From positions 1 through 34,080 of the IMG/VR virus record IMGVR_UViG_3300047462_000332: DNA of 34,080 nucleotides; one strand, written 5' to 3'. The DNA is from a virus. Below the pieces are notes generated by a model, which did no database searches, was not told the DNA's origin, and was given only the letters and a program-made list of their open reading frames with translations. Made by a program: the position numbers and the translations under genes. This document shows, piece by piece, positions 12,088 through 32,924 of the stretch (within the stretch, counting starts at the first letter, position 1; every line of letters begins with the position of its first letter).

Positions 12088-12513
12088 GTGCCTGAGCTCT
12101 TCGAAGAGCCTGTCCGGTTCCAGCTGCGCAGCCTGCAGGGCTGCCGTTTCCGCTGCCGCGCGACCGTCGGAAGGTTCGGCGAGAAGCGCGCCTTCCGAGG
12201 CCCGCCGCAGAAGACGGTCCTGCTCCTCGATGTCGTCCAGACCCGCACCGGCCAGAAGCTGACAGACCATGTCTGGTTCACGGTGGGAAAGTGGATGACC
12301 GCCGCGAACGTGCGGCCCGGCGATGTGATCGAGTTCGACGCGACTGTCGGCACCTACATCAAGGGGTATCAGGGGCACCGGGAAGACGTCGAGGATGCGC
12401 CTCCAGTACGCCAGGACTGGCGCCTGGAGCGGCCGACCCGCGTGGTGAATTTGCGCCTGGTGGGGACAGCGCCCGCCCAGCTCGAACTGGTGGCGGATAA
12501 AGCGACGCCATAG
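12088..12513 (+). CDS. OB-fold-like phage protein, 141 aa
   Basis: The likely start is GTG 12088, seven bases after the previous stop. The beta-rich sequence contains KTVLLLDVVQTRTGQKLTDH, VWFTVGKWMTAANVRPGDVI, EFDATVGTYIKGYQG and RLERPTRVVNLRLVG. This is the layout of small OB-fold phage proteins with a conserved WFT-x-x-K-W, G-D-x-I-x-F-D-A and K-G-Y-x-G. Such folds usually bind single-stranded nucleic acid; the binding itself is inferred. Confidence 0.5.
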   Translation: MPELFEEPVRFQLRSLQGCRFRCRATVGRFGEKRAFRGPPQKTVLLLDVVQTRTGQKLTDHVWFTVGKWMTAANVRPGDVIEFDATVGTYIKGYQGHREDVEDAPPVRQDWRLERPTRVVNLRLVGTAPAQLELVADKATP

Positions 12514-12581
12514 CGGCGGGGACCAAGCACGGCGACTGGGTCAGGGCGTGAGCTGCAGCTGACCCAGGAAGGACCGCGTCG
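12511..12581 (+). promoter_or_regulatory. GGGGACCA leader with 9-bp hairpin (before 12582)
   Basis: Right after the stop at 12511-12513 come GGGGACCA (12518-12525) and AGCA. A perfect inverted repeat follows, CTGGGTCAG (12536-12544) and CTGACCCAG (12559-12567), whose 14-base loop contains the palindrome AGCTGCAGCT. The Shine-Dalgarno-like AGGAAGGA directly abuts the hairpin before ATG 12582. One of six leaders of this type. Confidence 0.55.
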
Positions 12582-13271
12582 ATGGCGAACCCCACCGTGA
12601 CCATGATACAGCCGGCCGGCTGGAACAGCGGGGCCGTGGCGCTCTGCCCCAGCGGTGCGACCTACCAGCCCGACGCCTACGGTGTCGTCGCCAACGTGGC
12701 GCAGATCGACATCTCGATCATGGCGTCGCTCGGCTTCCGGGTCCTTGTCGCGCGCGACAATTTCTCCGCGACGACCGACCCCGGCACGTCGAACGATGTG
12801 ACCCAGGATTACGCGCCTGGTTCGCGCTGGATCAACACCACCTCCGGCCGCCTGTGGGTCTGCGTTTCGAACACGGCGAGCGCGGCCGCGTGGATCCCGG
12901 AGGTGGGCACCGGCCTGATCGCCATCCTGCTGGGGGCCAATTTCAACACGACCGCTGACCAGGCGCTGACGATGCTGGTGCTGTCGACCGCCATCTTCCG
13001 GGTGAGCAAGATGACGGTGACGAACGCCAGCGAGTCGCTGACGACCGCCGTCGGCGGCCTTTACGACGCCGCTTCGAAGGGCGGCAACGCCATTGTCGCC
13101 GCCTCTCAGGCTTATTCGGGACTGACCTCTGGGACGGTCGCGCTCGACACGACGCTGAACAAGAACGTGCGCGAGCCGGCCGGCACCAAGCTCTATCTCT
13201 CCCTGTCGACCGCCCAGGGCTCGACCGCGACGGCCGACGTTTATGTGTTCGGCGATTTGTTCTCGCAGTAA
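12582..13271 (+). CDS. Probable virion (decoration or fibre-like) protein, 229 aa
   Basis: From ATG 12582, after a hairpin leader with AGGAAGGA. It is Thr, Ser, Ala and Gly rich with beta-like alternation. GSRWINTTSGRLWVCVSNTA at about 84-103 is the type of phrase seen in phage fibre and head-decoration proteins. The C-terminal half (SLTTAVGGLYDAASKGGNAI, GTKLYLSLSTAQGSTATADV) resembles phage structural proteins that predict a jelly-roll-like fold. It lies between the terminase and portal modules and stands alone, with its own leader and a strong hairpin after it. The exact role is unknown. Confidence 0.5.
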   Translation: MANPTVTMIQPAGWNSGAVALCPSGATYQPDAYGVVANVAQIDISIMASLGFRVLVARDNFSATTDPGTSNDVTQDYAPGSRWINTTSGRLWVCVSNTASAAAWIPEVGTGLIAILLGANFNTTADQALTMLVLSTAIFRVSKMTVTNASESLTTAVGGLYDAASKGGNAIVAASQAYSGLTSGTVALDTTLNKNVREPAGTKLYLSLSTAQGSTATADVYVFGDLFSQ

Positions 13272-13390
13272 CGATCTCAATAAACGCGGCGTCATTACGT
13301 AATGTAGTCGCACCGATACTGTGCCGCTTCTGTCGCGGCACAGTATCGACCGTCTCAATATTGAACAAAGCCGCGTTTTGACTTAGAAGC
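13272..13390. promoter_or_regulatory. Structured intergenic region with nested inverted repeats
   Basis: No gene lies in these 119 bases. They contain: a 12-bp palindrome CATTACGTAATG at 13293-13304; a perfect 14-bp inverted repeat CGATACTGTGCCGC (13314-13327) and GCGGCACAGTATCG (13335-13348) with a 7-base loop; an outer 9-bp pair AAACGCGGC (13282-13290) and GCCGCGTTT (13370-13378) ending in TTTT; and a direct repeat TCTCAATA at 13275-13282 and 13353-13360. The outer stem plus T-run could act as a terminator. The inner repeats could bind a dimeric regulator. Confidence 0.6.
13314..13348. terminator. 14-bp stem hairpin after the virion-like gene
   Basis: A perfect 14-bp stem with a 7-base loop lies 43 bases after the stop of the 12582 gene. 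No U-run follows immediately, so this is either a factor-dependent or processed 3' end, or an operator. The T-run belongs to the outer stem ending at 13379. Confidence 0.4.
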
Positions 13391-14173
13391 GTGTCTCGCA
13401 TGCCGGGTTTCGTCTGGCTGCGAGGGCCCTCAATGCACGCCGCGGCACCGCTTACCGCCTCATCACCTGCGCCCAGGCTCGAGCAACTCTCGTTCGCCGA
13501 CCTCTGGGCGCGGCAACGACGGCCCGCCAGGGCCAGGCGGAGACGGCCGAAGCGGGCGCGGCCGAAGCCAGACCTCCAGGATCAGCTCCTGCTGCGCCTG
13601 CCGCAGCAACCCTCCATGACGGCGCTCACCGAAATGGTCGAAGGCGTCCTCGTCCGCATCGCCAAGAACGGCTCGACGATGCCGAACAATCCCATGCTCG
13701 GGCAGCGCTGCGCCGGCCGCGGGCGATCGAGCATGGATCGCGCCATCCGCAGGCTGGCCAAGCTCGGCCGCGTGCGCGTCGAAATCCGCGGCTCGCTCCG
13801 GCGCCTCTGGGTGAAATCCTGCGACCGCTGGACCGATTGGGGCGAAGCCCGCAAGGGACATGCGCCCTTCACCGCCCGCGCGCGCGGCACACCGCCGCCC
13901 GAGCCGCCCCCGCCGTCGGCCGAGATCGTCAGGCTGCCGCGCCCGGTTATCGAGCAGCTGAAGGTGCGGCCCAGCGAATGCTGCCAGTGGCCATTATGGC
14001 CAGACGGCGCCCGGCCGGACGGGCGGTATTGCGAGCGCGCGATCTTCCGGAAGAGCTATTGCGCCGAGCATCACGGCCGCGCGTTCGGCGCCAATGATGC
14101 CGAGATCGTGGACCTGGCACCACGTCGCCGCGAACTGCGCGGTGGCGTCTTTTCGCGAGCCTGTCTGGCATAG
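13391..14173 (+). CDS. Winged-helix protein with GcrA-type C-terminal Cys/His motif
   Basis: The open frame starts at GTG 13391; in-frame ATGs at 13400 and 13433 are equally plausible and no strong ribosome site decides. Numbering is from 13391. A basic Arg-rich stretch (about 40-60) precedes a likely winged-helix domain (about 76-140: LTEMVEGVLVRIAKNGSTMP, SSMDRAIRRLAKLGRVRVEI). The C-terminus has CCQWPLWPDGARPDGRYC, then SYCAEHHGRAF (about 195-231). This resembles the C-terminal Cys/His motif of GcrA, the alphaproteobacterial regulator that works with RNA polymerase at methylated GANTC sites. The swap of the DNA-binding domain suggests a phage-adapted regulator; its target is unknown. Confidence 0.6.
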   Translation: MSRMPGFVWLRGPSMHAAAPLTASSPAPRLEQLSFADLWARQRRPARARRRRPKRARPKPDLQDQLLLRLPQQPSMTALTEMVEGVLVRIAKNGSTMPNNPMLGQRCAGRGRSSMDRAIRRLAKLGRVRVEIRGSLRRLWVKSCDRWTDWGEARKGHAPFTARARGTPPPEPPPPSAEIVRLPRPVIEQLKVRPSECCQWPLWPDGARPDGRYCERAIFRKSYCAEHHGRAFGANDAEIVDLAPRRRELRGGVFSRACLA

Positions 14174-14236
14174 GCGCGATTGCCTCGGGACCAGCACCGG
14201 ACATAAATTCGCAACTTGTTGCGAACGGTGCGGGGA
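14174..14236 (+). promoter_or_regulatory. GGGACCA leader with operator-like palindrome (before 14237)
   Basis: CGGGACCA lies at 14186-14193, followed by AGCACCGG. A perfect 8-bp inverted repeat, TTCGCAAC (14208-14215) and GTTGCGAA (14218-14225), with a 2-base centre ends eleven bases before ATG 14237. It covers an alternative TTG start at 14216, so a bound protein or an RNA hairpin here could block expression. Confidence 0.5.
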
Positions 14237-15433
14237 ATGAATATCGTCGATTGGGACGCGCTGTGGGCGAGGCTGTCGGAGGTCGAGGCGACCTTGGGCG
14301 CGATCGCTGAGCGGGTCGCACGCATGTCCGAAATCATCGAGCTCCAGGCCGTCAGGATGGGGGCGGCGCCAACGATGCATAAAGAGCCGCTTTCCATGCA
14401 TGAAGAACCGCGTTCCGTGCATGAAGAGCCGCCTCCGATGCACGAGCCGGCGCCCGCGATGCATCAAGATCTGCCTTCGATGCATGAAGAGCCGCCTTCG
14501 ATGCATCAGGACGCGGATCTTGTGCGTCAACAGGAGGAGGCGATCCGTCAACTGGAAGAGCTCGCCCGTCAACCGCAGGCGCCGCTTGATCAACTAGAGT
14601 CGCCACTCGATCAACCCACACACCCGATCGACGAACCGTTACAGGTTACCAACTGTCAGCCAGGTTTGTCACTGGACACGACCGACGACGGGCCGCTCTT
14701 CCGATTCGTCGCCCGCGACAGATCCCGGCGCGTCAAGATGATCCCGGCCGCCCTCGATCCCGACACCGAGACGAAGATCGCCAAGCTGACCTTCAAGGGC
14801 AATTTCTGGGGCAAGAACGAGCTTCGCTTCCTGGTCCATTCCTTTCGGTATGGCATGACCCAGGCGGAGATCGGCCAGTGGCTCGGCCTCAACAAGAACA
14901 TGGTCGTGGGCGTCTATCAGCGCTTGAAGGAGGTCGAGGTCGACCTGGCGCGGCTCGTCGACAGCGTCGACGGCGTGAAAATCCGCCCTGGCCCGAGGCC
15001 GAAGGGTGCGGCAAAGGATGCGCCCCCGCCCAAAAAGCACGAAAGCAAGGCCGCGCCGAAGCCCCGCGCGAAGCGCCAGGCCGCAGCGAAGACGCCCGCG
15101 AAAGCCCCCACGCCGGTCGCACCGCCGGCTGCGCCACCAAAGCCTAAACCCGAACCCCTGATCTCACCGGAGCGTGCCATCGAAAATCACGCCATGGCGG
15201 CCACGGCGCCGCCCGCAACCCCCGAAGCGGAGATCGTCTTCTTCGCCGAGGTCGTAAATCCGGCGCTCGCCATCGCCGCCGGCCGCCCGCGCAACCGCTG
15301 CGAATATCCGCTGTGGAGCGACAAGCAGCGGCCGGATTTCCGGTTCTGCAACGCGCCGCGCGCGCAAGGGTCCTACTGCGCGCTGCACGCCAGGCGCTGC
15401 TACGACCCTGTGCGGACGCGCGCCGCGGCGTAG
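14237..15433 (+). CDS. GcrA-like protein with heptad repeats and HTH
   Basis: ATG 14237 is preferred over the in-frame TTG at 14216, which lies inside a palindrome. Residues 1-45 form a helix (WARLSEVEATLGAIAERVAR). Residues 47-137 are thirteen consecutive 7-residue units (for example MHEEPPS, VHEEPPP, IRQLEEL, LDQLESP) with a hydrophobic first position. About 187-231 is a helix-turn-helix-like domain (ELRFLVHSFRYGMTQAEIGQ, then WLGLNKNMVVGVYQRLKEV). A Lys/Ala/Pro-rich linker follows. About 353-390 is the GcrA-type motif CEYPLWSDKQRPDFRFC, then SYCALHARRC. It is a paralogue in architecture of the preceding gene and likely binds DNA or RNA polymerase, by inference. Confidence 0.6.
   Translation: MNIVDWDALWARLSEVEATLGAIAERVARMSEIIELQAVRMGAAPTMHKEPLSMHEEPRSVHEEPPPMHEPAPAMHQDLPSMHEEPPSMHQDADLVRQQEEAIRQLEELARQPQAPLDQLESPLDQPTHPIDEPLQVTNCQPGLSLDTTDDGPLFRFVARDRSRRVKMIPAALDPDTETKIAKLTFKGNFWGKNELRFLVHSFRYGMTQAEIGQWLGLNKNMVVGVYQRLKEVEVDLARLVDSVDGVKIRPGPRPKGAAKDAPPPKKHESKAAPKPRAKRQAAAKTPAKAPTPVAPPAAPPKPKPEPLISPERAIENHAMAATAPPATPEAEIVFFAEVVNPALAIAAGRPRNRCEYPLWSDKQRPDFRFCNAPRAQGSYCALHARRCYDPVRTRAAA
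14375..14647 (+). repeat. 21-nt (7-residue) tandem repeat, 13 units
   Basis: The coding sequence shows thirteen in-frame 21-base units. The first seven are related in DNA as well (ATGCATGAAGAGCCGCC-type); the last six have diverged but keep the 7-residue period and hydrophobic first residue (M,M,V,M,M,M,M,V,I,A,L,L,I). Confidence 0.75.
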
Positions 15434-15482
15434 CAGGGGACCAGTTCCCCTTACGCCTGGGCGCCCTGCAGAGTTGTAACGG
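15434..15482 (+). promoter_or_regulatory. GGGGACCA leader with short hairpin (before portal)
   Basis: GGGGACCA at 15436-15443 begins three bases after the preceding stop and is part of the inverted repeat AGGGGA-CCAGT-TCCCCT (15435-15451). The portal ATG is 47 bases downstream of the motif start. No clear Shine-Dalgarno is seen. Confidence 0.5.
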
Positions 15483-17465
15483 ATGGCGAAGAAAGGCCCT
15501 GGCTGGACCGATGACACGCCGCCCCCGGCCGCCCGCCCGGGACACGTGAAATCCATCCCAGCTCCCGACGACGATCCGCGCGCCACCGGCGCCTATGGCG
15601 ACTCGGTGGCGCGCGCGCTGCCCAAGCTGCTGGTCGACAGCGTCACCCGCGGCGCCTCCAACCTGGCGCGCCGCGCCGTCGGCGCCGAACTGCCCTACGA
15701 CACCGGCACGCTGCCCGCCTTCGACAATTACGTCGACAAGCCGCGCATCGAGCCGCGCCTGTTCACCGACAACGGCAAGCCGCTGCCGCCGGCGCCGATC
15801 GCGCCGCCGCCGGCGCCCGACCAGGATCCGTATTTCGGGCCGGCGGTGCCGATCCGGCCGCAAGCGAACCCCGAGGACGTCGCCGGCCGCGAGTTCGACT
15901 ACCCGCAGTCGATCAACCTCAACATCACGCCGCGCCAGTACGAGACGATCTCGTTCCTGCAGCTGCGCGCGCTCGCAGACAATTACGATCTGCTGCGCAT
16001 CCTGATCGAGCGCCGCAAGGATCAGATGCAGACGGTGACCGGATCGTTCCTGCCGATCCAGGCCGCCGGCGAGCAGACCCGCAAGCCGGCCGATGACCGC
16101 TGCCAGCGCCTGCAGGAAATGTTCCTCTATCCCGATCGGCGACTGCCCTTCTCGCTGTGGCAGCGCAAGCTGATGGAGGAGATGTTCGTCATCGATGCGC
16201 CGACGCTCTATGTCAGGCGCAACTACAACAACGAGCCGGTGAGCTTTGAAATCATGGACGGTTCCATGATCATCCCCCGGCTCTACACCGACGGTCGTCC
16301 GCCCGAGCCGCCGCGCATCGCCTACACCCAGATCCTGAAGGGCACGCCGGCGATCCACTACCGCGCCGACGAGCTCGTGTACTGGCCGCGCAACCCGCGC
16401 GCCGGCCGCCTCTACGGCAAATCGCCGGTGGAGCAGATCCTGACCACGGTGCTGATCGGCCTGCGGCGCGAGACCCACAAGCTCGGCTTCTACACCGACG
16501 GCAACATGCCCGACGCGCTGATGCCGGCGCCGGACGATTGGACCGCCGAGGACATAAGGCGCTTCCAGGCCGCGTTCGACGCCCGCATGCGCGACCCGCG
16601 CAAGCGCTTCAACAAGATCACGTTCGTGCCAGGCGGCGGCAAGCCGCCGGTCTTCACCCGATCGGAAGCCGTGCTGTTCGGCCCGTTCGACGAATGGCTG
16701 GCGCGGGTCTGCACCTACGCGCTGAGCGAGCCGAACACCGCGTTCGTGCAGCAGAACAATCGTGCGGTCGCCGAGACGGCGAACGAGGCGGCGCTGGCCG
16801 GCGGCCAGAACTCCCTGATGATCTGGTGGAAATCGCTGCTCGATCACATCGTGCAGAAGATCTGCGGCTATCCTGATCTCGAATATGTCTACGACGACAA
16901 GAGCGATATCGACCCGGCCGAGCTGATCGAGCAGCAGCTGCCGGCGATGGCTGAAGGCCTCGTTTCCGGCGACGAGCTCCGCGGCAAGATGGGCCTCGAG
17001 CCGGTCGGCCTGCGGCACATGGTCAAAGGCGTCGGCCCGCTCGGCTTCATGTTCGTCGATGACATGATCAAAGCCTCGCAGATGGGCCTCACCCTGCCGC
17101 AGACGGCGCCGCCGGGCGGCGATCCCGGCATGGGGGCGCCTGGCGCGCCACCTGGTGCACCGCCCATGCTCACCGGGCCCGGCGGCGGACCGCCGCCGAT
17201 CAACGGCGACGCCCTGACGATGCTGCAGGGCGTGCCGCCGGATCTGCTGGCGGCGGTCGGCCTGGGCCCCGAGGGGTCCGCCGGCCGCTCGGTCAACGTC
17301 ACCCAGCAGGAAGCGCTCGATGCCGATCCGCTCGGCCATGCGGTGGCGCACCCGCAGGTGCTGGCGACGCTGCGCGCGGCTGAGCGGCTGCACAAGCGCG
17401 CGCCCGTCAAGCCGACGCGGCGCGCCGTCCGGCGGATCACCCCTCGACAGGAGGCAAGACCGTGA
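15483..17465 (+). CDS. Phage portal protein
   Basis: A 660-residue protein forming the dodecameric DNA-entry ring at one capsid vertex, on which the terminase docks. Typical phrases: YDLLRILIERRKDQMQTVTG (about 171-190), LYVRRNYNNEPVSFEIMDGS (about 242-261), DELVYWPRNPRAGRLYGKSP, LSEPNTAFVQQNNRAVAETA and LMIWWKSLLDHIVQKICGYP. These follow the HK97/SPP1-type portal order of clip, stem and wing. The first 130 residues are Pro/Ala-rich. The C-terminus (about 545-590) is Gly/Pro low complexity followed by a basic tail. The stop overlaps the next GTG. It is longer than the usual 450-550, owing to the flexible ends. Confidence 0.88.
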   Translation: MAKKGPGWTDDTPPPAARPGHVKSIPAPDDDPRATGAYGDSVARALPKLLVDSVTRGASNLARRAVGAELPYDTGTLPAFDNYVDKPRIEPRLFTDNGKPLPPAPIAPPPAPDQDPYFGPAVPIRPQANPEDVAGREFDYPQSINLNITPRQYETISFLQLRALADNYDLLRILIERRKDQMQTVTGSFLPIQAAGEQTRKPADDRCQRLQEMFLYPDRRLPFSLWQRKLMEEMFVIDAPTLYVRRNYNNEPVSFEIMDGSMIIPRLYTDGRPPEPPRIAYTQILKGTPAIHYRADELVYWPRNPRAGRLYGKSPVEQILTTVLIGLRRETHKLGFYTDGNMPDALMPAPDDWTAEDIRRFQAAFDARMRDPRKRFNKITFVPGGGKPPVFTRSEAVLFGPFDEWLARVCTYALSEPNTAFVQQNNRAVAETANEAALAGGQNSLMIWWKSLLDHIVQKICGYPDLEYVYDDKSDIDPAELIEQQLPAMAEGLVSGDELRGKMGLEPVGLRHMVKGVGPLGFMFVDDMIKASQMGLTLPQTAPPGGDPGMGAPGAPPGAPPMLTGPGGGPPPINGDALTMLQGVPPDLLAAVGLGPEGSAGRSVNVTQQEALDADPLGHAVAHPQVLATLRAAERLHKRAPVKPTRRAVRRITPRQEARP

Positions 17466-17908
17466 GGATTTCCACCATGCAGACCGACCCGGCCTATGTG
17501 CCGGGCGCCATTCCGCCGGGCGAACTACAGATCTTCTTCGAGAACCGGCAGGTGGACGGGACACGCTCGCATGTCGTGACCGCGGATGAGGAGAAGGGCT
17601 TCCTCATCATGTTCGACCCTCATGTGCGGCGCCTGACGATGCTTGCGGGCGAGGTGCGCATCGAGATGACGCAGCGGCTGCTGGCGGTGGTGCCCAAGGT
17701 GCTGACGGTGCCGCCTGTGCGTGTGACCCCGGCTGATGGCTTGCTGCCTCCGGGTGTCATCTATTTCGTTGGTCAAGACGACCCGGTCACCTGGGTCGAA
17801 CGGCTGGATGATGCTTCGGGCGAACGGACTGGGCGTTTCGAGACGGTGCTGCGGCAATACACGCAGCGACTTCCGATCGTCGCAGAACACGCGACCAGGA
17901 CGCTGTGA
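17462..17908 (+). CDS. Hypothetical head-module protein, 148 aa
   Basis: GTG 17462 overlaps the portal stop (GTGA) and follows AGGAGG-like bases; an ATG at 17477 is an alternative. Beta-rich phrases include GELQIFFENRQVDGTRSHVV, GFLIMFDPHVRRLTMLAGEV and GVIYFVGQDDPVTWVERLDD. No motif is known to me. Position between portal and minor head genes suggests a small structural or assembly protein. The stop overlaps the next start (GTGATG). Confidence 0.6.
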   Translation: MRISTMQTDPAYVPGAIPPGELQIFFENRQVDGTRSHVVTADEEKGFLIMFDPHVRRLTMLAGEVRIEMTQRLLAVVPKVLTVPPVRVTPADGLLPPGVIYFVGQDDPVTWVERLDDASGERTGRFETVLRQYTQRLPIVAEHATRTL

Positions 17909-18633
17909 TGGAGAAATTCGCCCCCGACAAGCACCCGCGCGACAAGGACGGCAAGTTCACCGACGAAGGCCGCGCGCCGTCGCTGAGCGCCAAGCCGGCG
18001 ACATCCACCGGCCCGCAGCGGCGCTCGCTGGAAAGCTCGACGCGCGTCTGGAAGATCGGCGCCAGGACGAAGGAACTGCCGATCGAATACACCGGCTCGC
18101 GGACCAAGGAGCACCAGGTCGGCACCTTCCTCGAGCACAGTTTTACCGCGCAGATCCCGAAGAACGTCGATCCGAAGGACTGGCATCGCCTGGTGCGCAG
18201 CCTCTACGACGTCGCCAACGAGCAGCGCACCGGCGTCATCGATCGGGGTATCGCGAACGGTTACGTGCCGAAGGGCACGCCGCGCAGCACCGTGGTGAAG
18301 GCCTATGTGCACGCGACCAAGCTGGCCGTCGCCCAGTTCCAGGTCGCGAAATACCATTTCAAGATGGACGATCATCTGAAGGCCGAGATGACGCCGATGA
18401 TCCCCTTCATCCGGTATGCGCGTCGCCGCCTGCAGTCGATCATGCTCGGCAAGGAAAAGGGCCAGTGGCGCCCCTATCGCGCGGCGTTCGGTGTGCCGTT
18501 CAAGGATCTCCGCCGCGACAAGACCACCGGTGAAATCCGCCTGCGCGTGCCGAACAACGACCGGCTCGTGAAGATCGTCCCGGCGCATCCGCCGAGCTGG
18601 GCGCTGCATGCCGCATCAGCTTTCCGAGGCTGA
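17905..18633 (+). CDS. Hypothetical structural protein with KHPRDKDGKF segment, 242 aa
   Basis: Either GTG 17905 or ATG 17908 may start it, both overlapping the previous stop. The N-terminus FAPDKHPRDKDGKFTDEG resembles segments found in two downstream structural proteins of this window and in many phage capsid-associated proteins. The middle looks helical (VVKAYVHATKLAVAQFQVAK, RYARRRLQSIMLGKEKG). The C-terminus is basic. It overlaps the minor head gene by 26 bases. Probably a head-associated protein; the specific role is unknown. Confidence 0.6.
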   Translation: MMEKFAPDKHPRDKDGKFTDEGRAPSLSAKPATSTGPQRRSLESSTRVWKIGARTKELPIEYTGSRTKEHQVGTFLEHSFTAQIPKNVDPKDWHRLVRSLYDVANEQRTGVIDRGIANGYVPKGTPRSTVVKAYVHATKLAVAQFQVAKYHFKMDDHLKAEMTPMIPFIRYARRRLQSIMLGKEKGQWRPYRAAFGVPFKDLRRDKTTGEIRLRVPNNDRLVKIVPAHPPSWALHAASAFRG

Positions 18634-20734: not shown

Positions 20735-20966
20735 GATCGTGCGCGCGTACGGCGTGCTGGCAAAGGACTCAGGGCCGGTGGATCCAGGCGCGTGGGCCAA
20801 CCAGAGCGCGGGCCTGGGGGCGGTGCAGCCGCGGCCGAGCGACATCAAGAACCCGGGTCCCACGGGGACCTACGCGCCGCATTTCTGGGCTGACGACAAT
20901 CCCGGGAACATGGCGGCGATCGCCGCGTCGAAAGGCATCATGCCGTCGATCCCGCCCGGGCCGTAG
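20724..20966 (+). CDS. Hypothetical small protein, 80 aa
   Basis: ATG 20724 has AAGGAG nine bases upstream, inside the minor head gene, which it overlaps by 11 bases. The protein is Gly/Pro/Asn-rich with few hydrophobic stretches (NPGPTGTYAPHFWADDNPGN), suggesting a flexible peptide. No motif is recognised. The strong ribosome site and coupling favour real translation. Confidence 0.5.
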   Translation: MRPRIVRAYGVLAKDSGPVDPGAWANQSAGLGAVQPRPSDIKNPGPTGTYAPHFWADDNPGNMAAIAASKGIMPSIPPGP

Positions 20967-20981
20967 GGAGATGGCGGCGCG

Positions 20982-21251
20982 ATGGCATTCCGCGAAGTCT
21001 GGACGGATGAGAAGGTCGAGCAGTTGCGCACCCTGTGGGCGACACCGCTCAAGGTGCATGAGATCGCCAAGCGCATGCGCATGTCGCTGAATTCTGTGAC
21101 CGGCAAGGCGGATCGGCTGGACCTGCCACCGAGGCGCAAGACGAAGTCTGTCCCGCAAAAGCCCAAGCCTGGGGCGGCGCGCGCGCCTGCCTCCACGCTG
21201 CCGCCGCTGCCCTCGCTGAAAACACCCATTTCCCGACCGCCGACCGGCTGA
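20982..21251 (+). CDS. GcrA N-terminal-domain-like DNA-binding protein, 89 aa
   Basis: ATG 20982, with GGAG about eleven bases upstream. Residues 7-50 (VWTDEKVEQLRTLWATPLKV, HEIAKRMRMSLNSVTGKADR, LDLPPR) match the N-terminal helix-turn-helix layout of GcrA (W-T-x-E-x-V-x-x-L-x-x-L-W, then I-A-x-x-L, then N-x-V-x-G-K-x-x-R-L-x-L). The C-terminal Cys/His motif of GcrA is absent; instead there is a basic, Pro-rich tail. It could occupy GcrA sites without recruiting RNA polymerase. The IS1595 element is inserted 49 bases after its stop. Confidence 0.65.
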   Translation: MAFREVWTDEKVEQLRTLWATPLKVHEIAKRMRMSLNSVTGKADRLDLPPRRKTKSVPQKPKPGAARAPASTLPPLPSLKTPISRPPTG

Positions 21252-21284
21252 GAATCTCCTCTTTCTCCGCACTCTCCGCAAATT

Positions 21285-21296
21285 CCCCCCCCCCCC
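21285..21296 (+). repeat. C12 homopolymer tract
   Basis: Twelve C in a row end just before GTTG and overlap the left target-site duplicate of the IS. Such tracts are prone to slippage and to sequencing length errors. Confidence 0.8.
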
Positions 21297-21300
21297 GTTG
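21293..21300 (+). repeat. Target-site duplication, left copy (CCCCGTTG)
   Basis: Eight bases directly left of the IS end, identical to 22863-22870. Confidence 0.8.
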
Positions 21301-21330
21301 CGGAATTATACGTTTAGGGGGTTGAAGCGC
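21301..21330 (+). repeat. IS1595 left terminal inverted repeat
   Basis: Starts CGGAATTATACG and includes TTAGGGGGTTGA, paired with the right end at 22833-22862. Confidence 0.75.
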
Positions 21331-21408
21331 TCTCCCCCATGTGCGACTGTCAATCGTCGCCAAACGGTGACACGGGCGCCTCGCCGAGACGGGGGCGGAG
21401 ATACGCAG

Positions 21409-21745: not shown

Positions 21746-21940
21746 GTGACCAACCACCCCAATCGCCGGAAGCCCCGAGTAACCCTCGGGGCGACCGTGC
21801 TCCAGGTTCCGACCGAAGACGACGTTCCCGCCCTGGTCGCCCGCATCGCTCGCCTCTGGGCAGAGCTGCATGAATATGACCGCGAGCTGGCGCTCACCGT
21901 GGCGCGCTCGCTTCCTAGTATGGAGATTGAGCGGAAATGA
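21746..21940 (+). CDS. IS passenger protein 2, 64 aa
   Basis: GTG 21746 follows the previous stop by one base, and its own stop overlaps the transposase ATG (ATGA at 21937-21940). The basic N-terminus (TNHPNRRKPRVTLGATVLQV) leads to an acidic helix (DDVPALVARIARLWAELHEY). The length and coupled position suggest a helper or regulatory peptide of the IS, but no family is recognised. Confidence 0.5.
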   Translation: MTNHPNRRKPRVTLGATVLQVPTEDDVPALVARIARLWAELHEYDRELALTVARSLPSMEIERK

Positions 21941-22857
21941 CCGCGCTCGTTTCGATCTATCGCCGCTTCCCGGATCGGGAGGCGGCGACCTCGCATCTGG
22001 AGTCGGTGCGCTGGCCGGACGGCCCGATCTGCCCCTATTGCGCCAGCACGAAGGCTAGTCGGAACCGGGATAAGTCGAGAGGTCTCACCGACTCGCGCTG
22101 GCAGTGCCAGGACTGCAAGCGCAGTTATAGCGTCACGGTGGGGACCATTTTTCACAAGTCGCACATCGACCTGCAACGCTGGTTCCTGCTGATCTCGCTC
22201 ATGTTGAACGCGAAGAAGGGCCTCTCTTCTTTGCAGGCGGCGCGAGACCTCGAAATGCGCCAGCCCACCGTCTGGAGCATGATGCACCGCGTTCGGAAGG
22301 CGATGACCACGGCTGGCGAGGGCGACGTTCTTACGGGGCTGGTCGAGATGGACGAGACCTATGCCGGCGGGAAGCCCCGGAAGCCGAACGATCACGGCGA
22401 CGGCAGCGGGCCGAACGCGATCAGCCCGAAGGTCGCCATCGTGGGCGCTGTTGAGCGCGGCGGGAAGTTCAAGGCGAAGCCCGTCCCCGCCGACAAGCTC
22501 GGCCAGCCGGACATGCTCCGGCTCGCCCGCCGCTGGTTCGACAAGAAGGCCGTCGTCCACACCGACGAATACGCGGGCTACGGGACGCTCGGCTTCCAGC
22601 ACGTCCACCGCCGGGTGAACCATGCCCGTGAATACGTCGGCAGCGACCTCTTCGACCGCGTCTATGGCCCGCTCCACACCAACACCATCGAGAGCATGTG
22701 GGCGATCTTAGAGCGCGCGATCTTCGGCCAGTTTCACCACGTCAGTCGTTCGTGGATCGGAGCCTATGTGGACGAGATCGCCTTCCGGCGAAATCATCGG
22801 GACACGGACGCTTTTCAGGCGCTGCTTCGTCACGCCGTCAACCCCCTAACCGCATAG
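21937..22857 (+). CDS. IS1595-family transposase (ISXO2-like), 306 aa
   Basis: Catalyses cut-and-paste or copy movement of the element. The N-terminal zinc ribbon has Cys32-x2-Cys35 (ICPYCAS) and Cys57-x2-Cys60 (WQCQDCKRSY), followed by SVTVGTIFHKSHIDLQRWF. A helix-turn-helix lies at about 96-122. The catalytic domain begins VEMDETYAGGKPRKPN (Asp139), continues AVVHTDEYAGYG (Asp210), and ends HTNTIESMWAILERAIFGQF (Asn249, Glu252) and YVDEIAFRRNHRD (Glu280). This order is diagnostic of IS1595. The gene is full length with no frame disruption. Confidence 0.92.
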   Translation: MTALVSIYRRFPDREAATSHLESVRWPDGPICPYCASTKASRNRDKSRGLTDSRWQCQDCKRSYSVTVGTIFHKSHIDLQRWFLLISLMLNAKKGLSSLQAARDLEMRQPTVWSMMHRVRKAMTTAGEGDVLTGLVEMDETYAGGKPRKPNDHGDGSGPNAISPKVAIVGAVERGGKFKAKPVPADKLGQPDMLRLARRWFDKKAVVHTDEYAGYGTLGFQHVHRRVNHAREYVGSDLFDRVYGPLHTNTIESMWAILERAIFGQFHHVSRSWIGAYVDEIAFRRNHRDTDAFQALLRHAVNPLTA

Positions 22858-22862: not shown

Positions 22863-22870
22863 CCCCGTTG
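22863..22870 (+). repeat. Target-site duplication, right copy (CCCCGTTG)
   Basis: Eight bases directly right of the IS end, identical to 21293-21300. Removing the IS and one copy restores a continuous sequence ending in the GCGCGGGGACCAG leader. Confidence 0.8.
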
Positions 22871-22923
22871 GCGCGGGGACCAGAGCCGCCCGCTCTGGCC
22901 GGCGTCGGCCGGCGGAGCAAAGC
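22871..22923 (+). promoter_or_regulatory. GGGGACCA leader with hairpin (before 22924)
   Basis: GGGGACCA at 22875-22882 overlaps a perfect 7-bp inverted repeat CCAGAGC (22880-22886) and GCTCTGG (22892-22898). GCCGGC repeats and GGAG at 22914-22917 follow, with ATG 22924 49 bases from the motif start. The IS target duplicate ends directly before it, so the leader itself is intact. Confidence 0.5.
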
Positions 22924-23883
22924 ATGGCGTATGTGTTCGATGGCGAGGAGCTCGCGCGCGATACGTTCGGCCTGATCAAGGCGAACATGGTCCAGGCCGA
23001 CCTGGCGCGGCTGATGGCGTCCGAAGATCCCAATCCGGTGATCGAAGAGCTGCAGAAATGGGCCAATGCGAGCGATGACGGCCTGCGCAAGGCGATCTCC
23101 AGCCAGATCCTGCAGAACGCGCGGTCGCATCTCCAGGCGAGCGGCAACACGATCGCCGGCATGGCCGCGGTCGGCCCGTCGCCGGAGGTGAAGAAGCCTG
23201 GCCTGCCGCCGATGCGCCAGTCCAAGGCGATGCAGGCCGAGATCGACAGGCACGCGAACGTCTTTGCCCGCACGGCGATGAAGGCGGCGATCCATGGCGC
23301 CAGGCTGGGCGCGTCGTTCGGCGCGCACATCGCGCGCAAGAAGGCGATGGAACGCCGCCAGGCGATGTCGCATGGGCTTGGGAAGAGCGCCGACCCGCCG
23401 GCACCGCGGATCGAACAGGAAAGCACGCCCTCCGAAAGGCTTGGCGGCCGCAGCCCGCGCGCTCTGGTGCCCACACAAGCCGCGCGGTCGGCGCCGGAAC
23501 AACCCGAGATGGGATATTTCGGCGGTTCGGGGAAATTCGCGCGCACGCGTTTCCGGCCGCCGCCGCCCGAGAAAACGCCGTTCTTCCGCTCGCTCGCCGG
23601 TGCCGCATCGGGAGTAGCTGCGCGCAATCCCCTGAAATTGGGCATCGGGCTGCTGCTGGCAGGGGCAGCAACGCGGTGGGAGGGGCACCGCATGGAGACG
23701 GCCAACCGGACGATGGCGGCCGCAGCAGCCAAACGCCAGTTGAGCGATGCGCAACGACGTGAACGCATCGAGGCCGGCCGCAAGAGCCACCAGAATCGCT
23801 CAGGCGCGCCACCGTCCGTCGACCCCGCAGACATGCGCAAGTTCGAAGACTTCCTCGATCTCTACAAAAGGTCCCGCCGATGA
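22924..23883 (+). CDS. Hypothetical structural protein, 319 aa
   Basis: ATG 22924 has GGAG upstream. The N-terminal 80 residues are helical and acidic (AYVFDGEELARDTFGLIKAN, VIEELQKWANASDDGLRKAI). The middle is basic and Pro-rich. A short hydrophobic segment (LKLGIGLLLAGAATRWEG) lies near 240-257, and a charged helix ends the protein. Its stop overlaps the protease gene start (ATGA). Position in the head operon suggests a virion or assembly role; no family recognised. Confidence 0.55.
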   Translation: MAYVFDGEELARDTFGLIKANMVQADLARLMASEDPNPVIEELQKWANASDDGLRKAISSQILQNARSHLQASGNTIAGMAAVGPSPEVKKPGLPPMRQSKAMQAEIDRHANVFARTAMKAAIHGARLGASFGAHIARKKAMERRQAMSHGLGKSADPPAPRIEQESTPSERLGGRSPRALVPTQAARSAPEQPEMGYFGGSGKFARTRFRPPPPEKTPFFRSLAGAASGVAARNPLKLGIGLLLAGAATRWEGHRMETANRTMAAAAAKRQLSDAQRRERIEAGRKSHQNRSGAPPSVDPADMRKFEDFLDLYKRSRR

Positions 23884-28900: not shown

Positions 28901-31204
28901 CAGGTCGATCCGCTGACGGGCGCCGGCTGGCATGGGATTTCGGTTCAGGATCCCGAGAACCCGAAAGACCGCGTCCTGGTCTTTGGGGAGCACTATCGCA
29001 ACGACCGCGATCGCAGCGCGCCGATCCAGGTCGGCGTGCGCACGTCGGAAATGCGGGACCTGTTCACCCGCGCGCAGGAGAACCAGCGGCGACAGTTGTC
29101 GGGTGGTCTCGGTCAGGGCGCAGCCCCGGTCGGCCCGCGAGATGTCACCGGCCTCAAGCCGGAGGACAAGACCGAGATCGACCGCACGATCGGCGAGATC
29201 AAGGCGAAGATGGAGCGGGTCGACACGGAAGGGGGCGCCGCCAGCTTCCGTCACGAGGAAGAGACGGTGGGCCAGGGCCCGTCAGACAAGTTCGTCAATC
29301 ACATCAAGAACACCTACCTGGAGAACGGCTCGCCGGCGGGAAAGAAGTATTTCGACGCGCTCGAGGCCACGGTGCACAGCAACCAGGGACGCATCCTGAA
29401 GAAGCGCCAGGCCTTTTCGCTTCTGACCGGCTACACCCCGCAAGGCGCCCGCGTGAAGAGCCTTCCGCATGCGATCTTCAAGGATAATCCGGATTTCGAG
29501 TCGAGCGACCACGCGGCGACGGCGCGCGCGCTTGCCGCCGAGGCAGATCGCGCGATCGACACGCACAGGATGCAGACCGAACAGCAGCGCGCGTCGCTCC
29601 TGCGCGCGATAGGAACCGTCGCCTCGGTCAAAGGCACGCCGAATTACGCGCTGCAATCGGTCATCGACCGGATCAAGTCGGCGCCGATCGCGGCAGCAGC
29701 GGCATCCCCGCCGCCGTGGCCGGGAGCTGCAGCTGGCTTTTCCGCGTTCGGCGCGCGGCCCGGCACGCGCCATGAGTTCCGGCCCTCGCCGGACGCACCG
29801 GCGAGCGAGCCGTCCGCGCCGCCCCCGGAACAGCCGAAGGCGCGTTCCGCGCCGGCCGCAAACCCTGACATCGATCTGCGGCAGGTCCCAAGGACCTGGA
29901 CGACGCAGGAAGAGAACCTCGAGGTCAACCGCCTGATCGACGCGGCGAAGACCCATCTCGGCGCCAAGACCGACCTCGAGGCGCAGAAATATGCGCAAGG
30001 GTTCAGATCTGCGCTCGTCTACGCCAAGAACCTGTATCCCGACATGTCGATGCAGGATGCAGGCGATGTCGTACGGCATGCCATCCTGGAAGGGTTCGCC
30101 GCGAACGCCGGCGACTCCATTGCCATCAAGGGCATGCGGGAAATCCTGTCGTCGCCGCGGGGTTTCGGCGTTTGGCACAATCTGATCGTCCGCGCGCACG
30201 ACGATCTCAACAAGCGGTTCGATCCGGCCGCGTATTTCGGGTCGCTGATCCGCAAGCACGGCGACGCGGCCCTGGCAAAGGGATACGATAGCTGGCTGGA
30301 CGAGGCGCGGAATGCCTTCGGCGAGTGGACATCATCCGGCGCAGCAGGTGCTGCCGACGCCGCATCAGGCGCCCACGGCGCAGGCCAAAGCCCGGCACAG
30401 CGTGCAACCCAGGAAGTTCTCGACGGCGCAACGGAGGCGGTGGCGCGTCAGGCGAGCAAGCAACCGTCTAAAGCGGGAACGCCCTGGTATTCGCCGTCGC
30501 GGTTCATTCCCGAATTCGGCTCCAACCTCGCCGGCGATGCAGCTTCCGTTCTTGCATCGGCCGCGCTGGGCGGCGAGGGGCAGATCGGTCGGTTCGCGCT
30601 GACCACATTGGCGCCCGGCTTGCTGGGGCAGGCCGGCGGCAAGGCGGCCGCCACCGGTGTGCGCTGGGCTGTCAAGGGCGCGGTGCCGAACGCCGCATAT
30701 TTCGGCGCCAACGCAGCGGCCAAAATGCCGCTGAATGCCGCGACAGATGCCGCCTACAGGGCGGCCGGCGTCCGGCGCCCGAACCCGGCACCGCCGGAGT
30801 CGGACCTTGGCCGAATGGCCGCCAGCGGTCTCGGTTCCATGATCGGCTCGATAAAGGCCGTACCGGCTGTCAAAGCGGCGCTGGGGCCGGAGCTGACGGC
30901 TAGGATCCTAGGACGAAGGATCGGCGCCGGCATCGGCGATGCGCTCGGCACGGTCACAGAAGCCGCCGGGCCGGAGATCGGCTTGCCGGCCACCATCGCG
31001 CTGCAAAGCGTCGGCGGCTACGCCGGAGGCCTTCTCGCCAGCGGTCTCTACGACGCCGGCTCAGCGATCTCGCGGTGGTTCCAGGGCTACGACAAGGACA
31101 CTGCGCACCGCGTGCTCACCCGCTATGGGCCACCCCCTCGCGTTACCGGGCTCGGCCATAAATTGGGGCGTCCGCAGCCGCAGGAGCGCGGCTTCGAAGC
31201 GTGA
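25955..31204 (+). CDS. Giant structural or ejection-type protein, 1749 aa
   Basis: GTG 25955 overlaps the protease stop. The N-terminus carries DKHPRGRAGKF at about 70-80. Then: Gly/Ala-rich hydrophobic segments near 330-400 (STGAATVLAGLAGAAAGAGV, AVTAGAALGAVAAGLAGFYA); two long coiled coils near 570-665 and 690-835 (VEQQIAAHRTAIDKAATAVK, HEERVARAKERLKGARDAAV); a region around 970-1030 (FRYETGQVDPLTGAGWHGIS, DRVLVFGEHY); a Pro-rich stretch near 1245-1300; and a final Gly/Ala-rich section. There is no lysozyme or peptidase motif. Size, coiled coils and hydrophobic GxxxG-like segments resemble internal virion proteins that are ejected and form a channel, but this is inference. Its position between protease and scaffold is odd for such a gene. 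Confidence 0.6.
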   Translation: MTRHTFNPDIIAELRCRIARHNAACPGAPVKLQELKKRYGQWAQGPEPHEAAMSRIDKHLERLAKAFEEDKHPRGRAGKFESKGGGEQAPSMQVGLPADAAEHARMQRSNAGYDALTSDIIPDHRREEAGLFAREVGSLGAGTALTLAAYHDGGKGAFSRAVPKATGAAAAGIARGLTMGRARWAVNAARWAGRGAGWAAAQVAPRIVHAAVKMAQSAHPMPEPGAPAGEFARYAFRRGASKAGVLAGASVLTGLAIDHALKNSWLDPQDWGAGFDKYSYRTVRKFADVPGLDEAMLQIRGNLRARLLESARTGIPLEKSVSGRFIGAASTGAATVLAGLAGAAAGAGVGAAAHAGARQYYRDRMGRFASRGNAVTAGAALGAVAAGLAGFYALRRGNVARFMQVARAALTHHADMTRILTKPDAIRAHVARIRETLAKDPKAAGIATAFESDPLAKLADRYRKRDDLIREAVENDDVHKAALADLDRYGEANPTHYKEQVANHINSNLAHGLANIPAFKIRATWKPKSPWMTMAEVLADKGFDERNLVGRVMIQISKMSAADFDEATSGLTKVQRDNWKKVFDSRQTAIDGVEQQIAAHRTAIDKAATAVKKAETALNDARSVEAAATDPEAKKAAASALAQKQQAYDDADMKHRKLLASPPVKSPTGAPLTPFSPSQERVQLNAAAKKRAEAKVDAATEALRQKLLKRSVDRHDHTIATIANLGGRAAPSHLRDPVATLQRAHASHRNALAEVSQAEAEHATANSQLSDARAAARGQRVEGKTETDLEAMANSVPQHEERVARAKERLKGARDAAVTARQQMHEAALNFGEHLGTGSRPSGRPTKRRIPFAVAHRMSSDFAVLGGKTGKAVDQLIARPTRKALVAFAAEVGRSASAVGKRAKRLGSATLEQFKRGEGAERHYDIGRIGRVVAVTGGGAVLADAGHDLYERAKRRYFPDTDLSEKFGAASKLGGRFRYETGQVDPLTGAGWHGISVQDPENPKDRVLVFGEHYRNDRDRSAPIQVGVRTSEMRDLFTRAQENQRRQLSGGLGQGAAPVGPRDVTGLKPEDKTEIDRTIGEIKAKMERVDTEGGAASFRHEEETVGQGPSDKFVNHIKNTYLENGSPAGKKYFDALEATVHSNQGRILKKRQAFSLLTGYTPQGARVKSLPHAIFKDNPDFESSDHAATARALAAEADRAIDTHRMQTEQQRASLLRAIGTVASVKGTPNYALQSVIDRIKSAPIAAAAASPPPWPGAAAGFSAFGARPGTRHEFRPSPDAPASEPSAPPPEQPKARSAPAANPDIDLRQVPRTWTTQEENLEVNRLIDAAKTHLGAKTDLEAQKYAQGFRSALVYAKNLYPDMSMQDAGDVVRHAILEGFAANAGDSIAIKGMREILSSPRGFGVWHNLIVRAHDDLNKRFDPAAYFGSLIRKHGDAALAKGYDSWLDEARNAFGEWTSSGAAGAADAASGAHGAGQSPAQRATQEVLDGATEAVARQASKQPSKAGTPWYSPSRFIPEFGSNLAGDAASVLASAALGGEGQIGRFALTTLAPGLLGQAGGKAAATGVRWAVKGAVPNAAYFGANAAAKMPLNAATDAAYRAAGVRRPNPAPPESDLGRMAASGLGSMIGSIKAVPAVKAALGPELTARILGRRIGAGIGDALGTVTEAAGPEIGLPATIALQSVGGYAGGLLASGLYDAGSAISRWFQGYDKDTAHRVLTRYGPPPRVTGLGHKLGRPQPQERGFEA

Positions 31205-32739
31205 GCGGATCGGCGCCCGGCGGCGGTGCGAGTGCGGGCGGCGCAGGTGCCACCTTCGCCCAGCCGACCAGCGCGACCAAGGGCTTGCAGAACTACAATC
31301 TCGATCGCCGCATCAAGCGCCTCTATGTCGGCGCCGGCGGCTTCCAGCGCCGCCGTTTTAGACGCGGGGACCAAGCAAAGCGCCGCTTCGCCAGCACACT
31401 GGCGAAGGGCGCGTCCATGGACCTCGATGTATTGACCGATGCGCTGCAGGCCAGCGTCGCGGACATTCTGGCCAAGGGCGGCGCCGACACCGAGAGCCTG
31501 CTGCAGAAATCGTTCGGCGAGTATCGCGAGGCGCTGGGCGAGTACGTCAACGGCGCCTTCGAGGAGCTGCAGAAGCTCGGGCCAGACGGCGGCGAGGAGC
31601 CGCTGTTCAAGGGCCTCGGCACGGTCGGGCGCGCCGCCGGCCTGCTCAAGCACCTCGCCGAAAAGATCGATTGCATGAAATCGGGCCACGATTGGCCCGG
31701 CAGCAACGACGAGCCGCACGACCCCGCGCCTGAAGAAATGCATCCGATGATGGACGGCCTGGTGCGCATGGCCGAGCTGCTGCTGCACCAGGCCGTCAAT
31801 GATCACGTCGAGCCCGCCACCGACGATGAAATCGAAGGCGGCGCGCCGGGCATGATGCTGATCTCCGTGCCCGACGGCAGCGACGATCCGGACAATGATG
31901 TCATCGTCAAGACGGCGCTGCCCGAAGGCCTCGCCAAGTTCGCGATGCATCCGGACATTCTTGCCGGGGAAGCGTTCTCGCTCGGCTATGGGCTGCTGTC
32001 GCTCGCCGGCGTGCCTGAGCAGGCGCTGGAAAAGGCCTTCGACGGCATGGATCCCGGCATGGATCCGAACAACGGCGATCCTGCCTCGATGCAGGACGAC
32101 GGCAGCCTTGATGATGTCGGCGATCCGTTCGATGTCGCCGGCAAATTGTGCGCGGCGCTGATGATCCAGATCGATCATTGCCGGGCGATCGCGTATGGCG
32201 AGATGGATCCCGCCGGCGATCCGACCGGCGATCAGAGCGGCATGGCGTCGCAGGACGGGACGGTGTCGCCGGATCCGCAGGATCCGAATGCCGATCCGAC
32301 CGGCGGCATGGAGCAGGATCCGCACGCCGATCCGACCGGGCCGGTGGCCGATGGTCCGGGCAAGAGCCCGATGGGCAGCGGCAATGAGGATCACAAGAAA
32401 AAGCCGCCGATGCGCAAGAGTGCGGACGATCCGCGCGTAGCCGAGCTCGAGGCGAAGCTGGAGAAGTTCGCAGGCCTCGGCGATGCGCTGGGCAAGCTGA
32501 CCGACGTGGTGGCCAGCATGCAGTCGAACACGATGCAGCCGCCGCGTGGGCCGCTGACGCAGATCGCGCCGCCGCTCGGCAAGCAGCATGACAACGTGTC
32601 GGCCGAGGAGCGCGAGCTCATGGCGCAGTCGCAGGAGCAGCAGCTGCTAGCGATGCAGCCAGCGCAGCGCGCCGAGGAGCTGATGAAGATGATCTGGCGC
32701 AACGGCCCGCAGGAGCCGACCGGCATGGCGCACGGCTAA
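31201..32739 (+). CDS. Probable scaffold protein, with a capsid-like N-terminal extension
   Basis: The frame runs from GTG 31201, which overlaps the previous stop, to 32739 (512 aa). An internal ATG at 31417 (440 aa) may be the main start because a GGGGACCA leader with hairpin lies just before it. From 31417 the protein is acidic and helical (MDLDVLTDALQASVADILAK, YVNGAFEELQKLG). A D-P-x-G-rich repeat region follows (DPAGDPTGDQ, DPHADPTGPVADG), then a C-terminal coiled coil (RVAELEAKLEKFAGLGDALG, RELMAQSQEQQLLAMQPAQR). Low complexity, acidity, terminal coiled coils and position directly before the capsid gene fit a scaffold. Residues 1-50 of the long form resemble the capsid N-terminus. Confidence 0.6.
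   Translation: MSGSAPGGGASAGGAGATFAQPTSATKGLQNYNLDRRIKRLYVGAGGFQRRRFRRGDQAKRRFASTLAKGASMDLDVLTDALQASVADILAKGGADTESLLQKSFGEYREALGEYVNGAFEELQKLGPDGGEEPLFKGLGTVGRAAGLLKHLAEKIDCMKSGHDWPGSNDEPHDPAPEEMHPMMDGLVRMAELLLHQAVNDHVEPATDDEIEGGAPGMMLISVPDGSDDPDNDVIVKTALPEGLAKFAMHPDILAGEAFSLGYGLLSLAGVPEQALEKAFDGMDPGMDPNNGDPASMQDDGSLDDVGDPFDVAGKLCAALMIQIDHCRAIAYGEMDPAGDPTGDQSGMASQDGTVSPDPQDPNADPTGGMEQDPHADPTGPVADGPGKSPMGSGNEDHKKKPPMRKSADDPRVAELEAKLEKFAGLGDALGKLTDVVASMQSNTMQPPRGPLTQIAPPLGKQHDNVSAEERELMAQSQEQQLLAMQPAQRAEELMKMIWRNGPQEPTGMAHG
31240..31340 (+). other. Segment similar to the major capsid protein N-terminus
   Basis: The encoded GATFAQPTSATKGLQNYNLD, then RRIKRLYV, parallels TGTFVQPSTATTGLQQYNLE, then PAAKNLYP of the capsid gene at about 33045-33130. 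DNA similarity is also visible (CAGAACTACAATCTCGA against CAGCAGTACAATCTCGA). It looks like a partial duplicate of the capsid gene start. Confidence 0.65.
31360..31416 (+). promoter_or_regulatory. GGGGACCA leader with 9-bp hairpin inside an open frame (before 31417)
   Basis: GGGGACCA at 31366-31373 is followed by AGCA, as in the 12518 leader. Then comes a perfect 9-bp stem, CTTCGCCAG (31386-31394) and CTGGCGAAG (31399-31407), with a CACA loop. ATG 31417 lies 51 bases from the motif start, the same spacing as other copies. It marks 31417 as a likely start although the frame is open from 31201. Confidence 0.5.
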
Positions 32740-32924
32740 GACGTTACGCGCCCGATCGTCATTTTCTTCTTGACGGGGACACAACCGGGTTCGCCTGGGG
32801 TCCCTGTCGTGCCCGCTGGGTGCGGGACCAGGCGACGCTGATCGCCGCGCTTCTCCCGATATGAGCGCCGGGACCCGGTTCGTTTTCGCCGATTTTGCCG
32901 CGGCGCCGATCGTGGACCCTTTCC
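32740..32924 (+). promoter_or_regulatory. Long capsid-gene leader with GGGACCA
   Basis: These 185 bases hold no gene. A variant GGGGACAC lies at 32775, CGGGACCA at 32823-32830, a small stem GGCGA/TCGCC at 32831-32846, and the near-palindrome CCGGGACCCGG near 32867. The distance from GGGACCA to the capsid ATG is about 100 bases, longer than in the other leaders. No strong Shine-Dalgarno precedes ATG 32925. A highly expressed capsid gene would be expected to have its own signals here. Confidence 0.45.

Follow-up and report, generated by a model that had tools for sequence, protein, structure and literature searches.

A GGGACCA-containing element recurs ahead of late genes in a clade of uncultivated phages and very probably acts in late-gene control

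Here, we examined the IMG/VR virus record IMGVR_UViG_3300047462_000332 (34,080 nucleotides, analysed whole and hereafter called the window), which is linear and probably a fragment, and focused on a short plus-strand element built around GGGACCA that lies ahead of start codons of its late genes, among them the portal gene and two genes with no assigned function (Table 1). A first-pass annotation made from the sequence alone had listed six plus-strand sites, and its coordinates, strand, spellings (GGGGACCA or GGGGACCAAGCA), and distances from motif to start (64, 50–51, 47, 49, 51, and ~101 nt) were right, while a seventh copy, at 22141 in a transposase gene, had been missed.

The window contains seven copies of GGGACCA, none of them on the minus strand, against 3.39 expected for both strands summed (the earlier estimate of about four per strand was too high), and at least seven were reached in 6 of 100 shuffles of the window, so that the total count is only marginal. 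The 8-mer GGGGACCA was observed five times where 1.02 were expected, a number that none of 100 shuffles reached. Since copy number alone is marginal, the strong evidence lies in position: the late gaps, defined with a simple codon-model gene caller and totalling 1094 nt, hold five copies of GGGACCA against 0.054 expected on the plus strand (P = 4e-9, counting in the weak copy at 32824 and leaving out that at 31366; P = 3.5e-7 with four copies). Neither genes nor the minus strand thus carry the motif at a density like that of the gaps. All listed copies had been placed in leaders, which holds once two are set apart, namely 31366, inside the open reading frame (ORF) 31201–32739, and the weak 32824. 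Most sites score about 17–24 on a position weight matrix (PWM); the 32824 copy reaches 9.6, sits in a different and larger structure than the other copies, and probably does not belong fully to the module. Two accepted window sites also score low (14187, 11.0; 15437, 9.2), the latter being accepted because it lies in the portal-gene leader, where relatives carry the element too. The copy in the transposase gene is a chance copy outside the module; this gene (21937–22857) is of the IS1595/ISXO2 type with a zinc ribbon and stands amid structural genes.

Table 1. Elements, hairpins, and genes of the late region, with capsid-leader hairpins of related records (positions are those of the window unless another record is named)
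Feature	Position	Strand	Remarks
Large terminase	9536
Element 1, TAGCGGCGGGGACCAA	12511–12526	+	Opens with the TAG stop of the preceding gene; ACCA to ATG 12582, 60 nt
Hairpin of element 1, CTGGGTCAG / CTGACCCAG	12536–12567	+	9 bp; from sequence and folding
Late gene after element 1, no assigned function	12582–13271	+	229 amino acids; G001 homologue 7923–8453, element spelled CCGCAACCAAA
Candidate trans-acting regulator	13391–14173	+	Predicted winged helix and GcrA-like C-terminal stretch
Element 2, TTGCCTCGGGACCAG	14179–14194	+	Weaker match; ACCA to ATG 14237, 47 nt
Hairpin of element 2	14194–14231	+	Outer GCACCG / CGGTGC, inner TTCGCAAC / GTTGCGAA; z −2.8
GcrA-like gene after element 2	14237–15433	+	PF07750, E 2e-10
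Element 3, GTAGCAGGGGACCAG, ahead of the portal gene	15429–15444	+	TAG is the upstream stop; spacing to GGGG 2 nt short
Portal gene	15483–17465	+
MuF-type protein	18608
GGGGACCA copy in transposase gene	22140–22147 (GGGACCA 22141–22147)	+	Below threshold of extended-motif scan
Element 4, TTGGCGCGGGGACCAG	22868–22883	+	ACCA to ATG 22924, 45 nt
Inverted repeat CCAGAGC / GCTCTGG	22880–22898	+	Overlaps element 4; competing hairpin GCCGGC after it
Late gene after element 4, no assigned function	22924–23883	+	319 amino acids; G001 homologue 8784–10160, element spelled CTCGCAACCAAC
Protease-like protein	23880
1749-amino-acid protein	25955
Pre-capsid ORF	31201–32739	+	512 amino acids; candidate nested product from 31417; homologues in G001, G005, G006, G009
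Capsid-like N-terminal arm of pre-capsid protein	31201–31350
Element 5, TAGACGCGGGGACCAA	31359–31374	+	In frame inside ORF 31201–32739; ACCA to internal ATG 31417, 47 nt
Hairpin of element 5	31380–31412	+	GCGCC / GGCGC with CTTCGCCAG / CTGGCGAAG, loop CACA; z −4.2 to −5.9
Weak copy CGGGACCA ahead of capsid gene	32816–32831	+	PWM score 9.6; 101 nt before capsid start
Capsid gene	from 32925
Capsid-leader hairpin, G005 (L193)	14020–14112
Capsid-leader hairpin, G006 (L198)	10370–10465
Capsid-leader hairpin, G009 (L204)	12200–12327
Capsid-leader hairpin, G001 (L210)	7600–7691

Eight related records, all uncultivated, carry the element in late-gene leaders (L066, L080, G001, and G005–G009). L066, a contig assigned by binning to a Rhodospirillales metagenome-assembled genome (MAG; portal 52%), and L080 (portal 49%) were found by profile scans with portal alignments, a search in which the motif was unused, and they have GGGGACCA 46 nt before the portal gene and GGGGACCA (GGGGACCAAGCA) 51 nt before the first gene of the portal operon, respectively. 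The G records, including G006 (96.6 kb), G009 (95.5 kb), and a further one, G010, were found via the protein family of the window gene at 17905. Forward and reverse counts of GGGGACCA were 5:0 in G005, 6:0 in G006, 0:2 in G007 (stored reversed, hence 2:0 in gene orientation), 1:0 in G008, 2:0 in G009, 1:0 in G010, and 0:0 in G001. The exact copies of G009 and G010 lie outside leaders; the leaders of G009 use other spellings, and G010, with no accepted leader site, adds nothing independent.

Among 19 GGGACCA sites, T at −8, T or A at −7, and G at −6 relative to GGGACCA were conserved, as was an A after the motif, with no further conservation upstream to −60, and a 33-site alignment gave the consensus T[T/A]G-N4-GG[G/C][G/A]ACCA-A (in short form T[T/A]G-N4-GGGGACCAA). 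Scanning with a PWM and inspection brought out diverged spellings (GGCGACCAA in G006 and G009, GCAACCAA in G001 and G006), the only ones in which the leaders of G001 and G009 carry the element; the PWM that yielded part of the variant sites had TTG built into it, and the T[T/A]G block is therefore not independently proven there. The elements stand just behind an upstream stop codon or within an ORF, and their distance to the start is tight, ACCA lying 40–54 nt ahead of it in 23 of 28 leaders (typically ~47 nt). Across all genes of G001 and G009, G[GC][AG]ACCA was found seven times in the 45–59 nt bin and zero to three times in other bins, while scrambled forms of the motif gave no positional peak in these two records. 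Searches against Rfam 15 gave no match above the gathering score anywhere in the window, none at E ≤ 1 in window 12000–34080, and a single chance-level match on 10 kb of G006.

Despite these differences in spelling, each of seven gene families has the element in more than one phage: the portal family (window, L066, G006, and G008) and those joining window 12582 with G001 7923, window 22924 with G001 8784, G001 20201 with G005 16644, G001 23033 with G006 79246 and G009 1900, G006 83004 with G009 3305, and G006 88828 with G009 10384. It is missing from the remaining members of the seven families, and the element is therefore not obligatory. A recurring leader module ahead of late genes, as first proposed, is hence borne out by position and by orthologous leaders, the motif being kept in those of the closest relatives. 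The leader of the window-22924 homologue also holds two apparent tRNA genes (L023/G001 8540–8705; anticodons CAT and TCC by eye). Their proximity prompted a comparison of ACCA with a tRNA-like 3′ end, which was rejected as no conserved pairing partner or T-loop was found.

The element appears confined to this clade. It is missing in portal relatives at about 35–45% identity (Polewnik, Strzyga, L049, and others), including the Brevundimonas phages Polewnik and Strzyga, which share 37–41% with the window in portal and capsid, and the motif core patterns were not enriched at this start distance in 697 leaders outside the clade (one loose pattern, with seven in the 60–69 bin of these leaders, was left uninterpreted). 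Named phages yielded no relative of the clade gene 17905 or of the candidate regulator described below, single-protein scans with terminase, portal, and capsid missed the clade, and an exact DNA scan of viral contigs for TAGNNNNGGGGACCAAGCA gave 13 unrelated chance matches. Polewnik and Strzyga have an inverted TGGTCCC...GGGACCA pair before one gene (L003 12787–12808 and L004 12746–12767), which is probably unrelated to the element. That a GC-rich 7-mer recurred by chance, as a total count barely above expectation (6/100 shuffles) might have suggested, is scarcely credible and was refuted by the position in gaps, by relatives found independently that keep the motif in orthologous leaders, and by the peak in phages outside the motif definition. 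We consider it very likely that the element is a functional, clade-specific cis-element of late genes.

One site departs from the gap arrangement: around the 31366 copy, ORF 31201–32739 reads through in frame, with an internal in-frame ATG at 31417 downstream. The element occupies the equivalent internal place in G005 (12418) and in G001 (TAGACGGCGCAACCAAGC), each time ahead of an in-frame ATG, which suggests, as far as sequence can tell, a nested product of the pre-capsid ORF. Phage lambda C/Nu3 offers a precedent for nested products. In all five phages having both proteins, the N-terminal ~60 residues of the pre-capsid protein resemble the capsid N-terminus (TFxQPTxxTxGLQxYxLE).

An inverted repeat had been described behind most copies, and this proved true of the clade as a tendency rather than a rule. 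Perfect stems of at least 6 bp follow the element in 13 of 28 clade leaders, against 4.7 ± 2.1 in shuffles (0/200 as high), and the segment behind the element folds with a mean z of −1.09 in 28 leaders (p = 0.0009 versus zero), compared with −0.20 in other gap leaders of the same phages (p = 0.0027 for the better folding of motif leaders); an earlier test on 20 leaders gave p = 0.057 versus leaders and 0.007 versus coding sequence. In 25 of 28 leaders the hairpin stops no more than 5 nt from the start (20.8 in shuffles; 8/200), Shine-Dalgarno (SD) bases are paired at 0.74 in motif leaders and 0.60 in control leaders (a difference given without significance estimate), and the ACCA part of the GGGGACCAA stretch is predicted to be mostly unpaired. 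Hairpin sequences are unrelated from leader to leader, and the constancy of the start distance after hairpin removal was only a trend (14/200 shuffles equally extreme). Pairing of T[T/A]G with CAA was considered and rejected, with no compensation where −10 is A.

The capsid leaders of G001, G005, G006, and G009 have a nested hairpin in common, with outer stems of differing sequence, an inner stem of GGCCC/GGGCC, GCCCC/GGGGC, or GGCTC/GAGCC, a 12-nt loop with GCCG, and then GCGGC; these sequences are suggestive of covariation in an RNA structure. The window capsid leader (32740–32924) has a degenerate copy (z +0.25). A TTGAC-led GC hairpin (TTGACNGGGGAC...), which resembles the first half of the element, lies 120–170 nt before the capsid start in the window (32773–32810), G005, G006, and G009.

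A candidate trans-acting regulator is encoded at 13391–14173. Its family lies between large terminase and portal in all seven records with that interval (the window, L066, L080, and G006–G009); no strong match was seen in other fetched portal relatives, with weak ones at three non-clade loci (E 7e-5 to 5e-4), and a prophage search across 397 genomes from the order to which the L066 MAG belongs returned that MAG only. AlphaFold predicted the helix-helix-helix-strand-strand order of a winged helix at residues 78–141 with high values of the confidence score pLDDT, the model being confident only there and of low confidence in the C-terminus; a PDB fold search with this low-confidence model returned winged-helix proteins without significance. 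The best matches of the C-terminus in the whole PDB were GcrA structures, both weak (5yix, E 0.017; 7ye1, E 0.062). The C-terminal part of PF07750 was matched in three of six family members (E 0.0002 to 0.07), and the window protein matched PF07750 in this part only, at E 0.07 and under the curated cut-off. The pattern of the GcrA sigma-interacting domain (CxWP..CG..YC..H), sought in its C-terminus, gave a weak match where model confidence is low, and the N-terminal GcrA DNA-binding domain was not found, the N-terminus being the winged helix. The C-terminal domain of GcrA binds sigma2 (PMC7403470). The window also has two GcrA-like genes (14237–15433 and 20982–21251, the second retaining only the N-terminal part of PF07750), and GcrA proteins are encoded near portal in L066, G007, and G008 as well. 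The gap in front of the regulator candidate (13272–13390) contains a long perfect inverted repeat, GATACTGTGCCGC / GCGGCACAGTATC within AACGCGGC / GCCGCGTT, plus TTTT, which on inspection looks like a terminator.

The first-pass annotation had named a late-promoter part, a processing site, and a translational element bound by a phage protein, and the data do not choose among these. We lean, tentatively and somewhat short of even confidence, towards an action at the RNA level that gates translation of the late genes. The element would act within the mRNA leader, where a phage factor may bind the GGGGACCAA stretch, with its mostly unpaired ACCA, next to a hairpin that would cover the ribosome-binding region; gated starts would include the internal one nested in the pre-capsid ORF. 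The tight spacing between element and start speaks for this reading, as do the better folding of motif leaders, their excess of perfect stems, the hairpin ends close to the start, and the higher pairing of SD bases, and no AT-rich −10-like stretch was found between −60 and +45 of the motif. A number of observations weigh against it. Roughly one leader in three has no hairpin or a weak one and folds no better than shuffles (at 15436, z = +0.8), the hairpins of orthologous leaders cannot be aligned for covariation, and the sense strand folds no better than the antisense strand in motif leaders and controls alike, leaving no RNA-specific signature. Neither a Com-type protein (several members being only fragments) nor another RNA-binding factor was detected in the clade, the sole conserved regulator candidate looks DNA-binding, and the distance of about one helical turn that separates T[T/A]G from ACCA would be compatible with DNA too. 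Moreover, several variant sites of G009 and G006 were gathered by PWM or by eye, which makes the conservation of T[T/A]G partly circular, the upstream triplet at G001 sites found without the PWM is mixed (TAG, TGG, AGG, TTT), and some start codons rest on an in-house gene caller.

A DNA-level signal for late transcription, in which the 16-bp motif is bound by a phage activator (the 13391–14173 protein being the candidate) that recruits host sigma70 RNA polymerase, and the hairpin stabilises the 5′ untranslated region, strikes us as possible, if doubtful. Motifs that recur in one direction between phage genes often turn out to be promoters, and the presence of the regulator family, with its predicted winged helix and weak GcrA-like sigma-interacting C-terminus, wherever a clade member has the terminase-portal interval would fit; however, this co-occurrence is confounded by common descent, the pairing of protein and motif is putative, neither −35/−10 conservation on either side of the motif nor an AT-rich stretch was found, and promoters need no fixed 40–54 nt to a start codon. 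Sigma70 −35/−10 hexamers were likewise not found at the elements, a domain search for sigma70 region 4 gave no convincing phage sigma factor, and comparison by eye with sigma54 (GG-N10-GC), ECF-type −10/−35 spacing, and 16S pairing gave no consistent match. We keep both the RNA and the DNA reading because no standard promoter and no phage polymerase or sigma factor was found on the one hand, while a candidate regulator, clade-specific among the fetched loci and with a weak C-terminal match, is present on the other. An RNA processing or transcription-elongation signal (a nuclease site, pause, or antitermination) that splits long late transcripts is unlikely: elements right behind stop codons in co-directional clusters, followed by hairpins and mostly by no U-tract, would suit it, and the window terminator scan gave no plus-strand terminator-like site (GC hairpin and U-tract) at any element, but no such factor was identified and the tight start distance is not predicted. 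Leaders of T7 class III genes begin with GGG and continue into a hairpin, as GGGGACCA would if it were the initially transcribed sequence of a promoter for a T7-like single-subunit RNA polymerase; we regard this as highly improbable, since nothing is conserved upstream of T[T/A]G (none upstream of −11). PF00940 was unmatched in every clade record, including two of ~96 kb, a search in which control genomes likewise gave no match, and no phage-type RNA polymerase was found with Pfam among 36 early and middle proteins of G006. Rather unlikely, too, in our judgement, is the specific proposal that a fusion of winged helix and GcrA-like sigma-interacting domain reads T[T/A]G-N4-GGGGACCAA regulon-wide, with the same signal also starting the nested in-frame pre-capsid product.

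One of the known systems closest to the element is that of the Start Associated Sequences of cluster K mycobacteriophages (SAS/ESAS), in which the 13-bp GGGATAGGAGCCC lies directly upstream of the start (PMC3203893). Both are short asymmetric repeats in near-single orientation before many starts of one phage group, conserved group-wide with subgroup-specific spelling and commonly next to an inverted repeat. However, SAS abuts the start and contains the SD sequence, whereas our element has an unrelated sequence ~47 nt upstream, and the ESAS inverted repeat has a consensus, whereas here the repeat lies between motif and start and differs in sequence each time. With GcrA, a sigma70 cofactor of alphaproteobacteria (PMC7403470), the candidate regulator has in common a weak match to the sigma-interacting domain; genes for true GcrA-like proteins stand beside the portal gene. 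The candidate differs in that its DNA-binding part is a winged helix, and the element has no GANTC site. GANTC is the methylated site of GcrA. In the Com-mom switch of phage Mu, a hairpin masks the ribosome-binding site, and the RNA upstream of this hairpin is bound by a factor from the phage; the supposed working of our element and the hairpin tendency would resemble it by analogy, but Mu has one such gene and the clade many, and no Com-family protein was detected. T4 late and T7 class III promoters place one signal per late unit in gaps, oriented with transcription. The element is likewise intergenic, transcription-oriented, and one per late unit, but no AT-rich melting region, conserved flanks, phage polymerase, or sigma factor was found.

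How late genes are switched on is unexplained for most phages known only from metagenomes, and the combination of an element, its spacing, orthologous sites, and a candidate regulator makes the question testable in this clade. Should it prove to work on RNA, the element would represent a translational switch of phages that serves many genes; should it prove to work on DNA, it would represent the GcrA mechanism of alphaproteobacteria as adapted by a phage.

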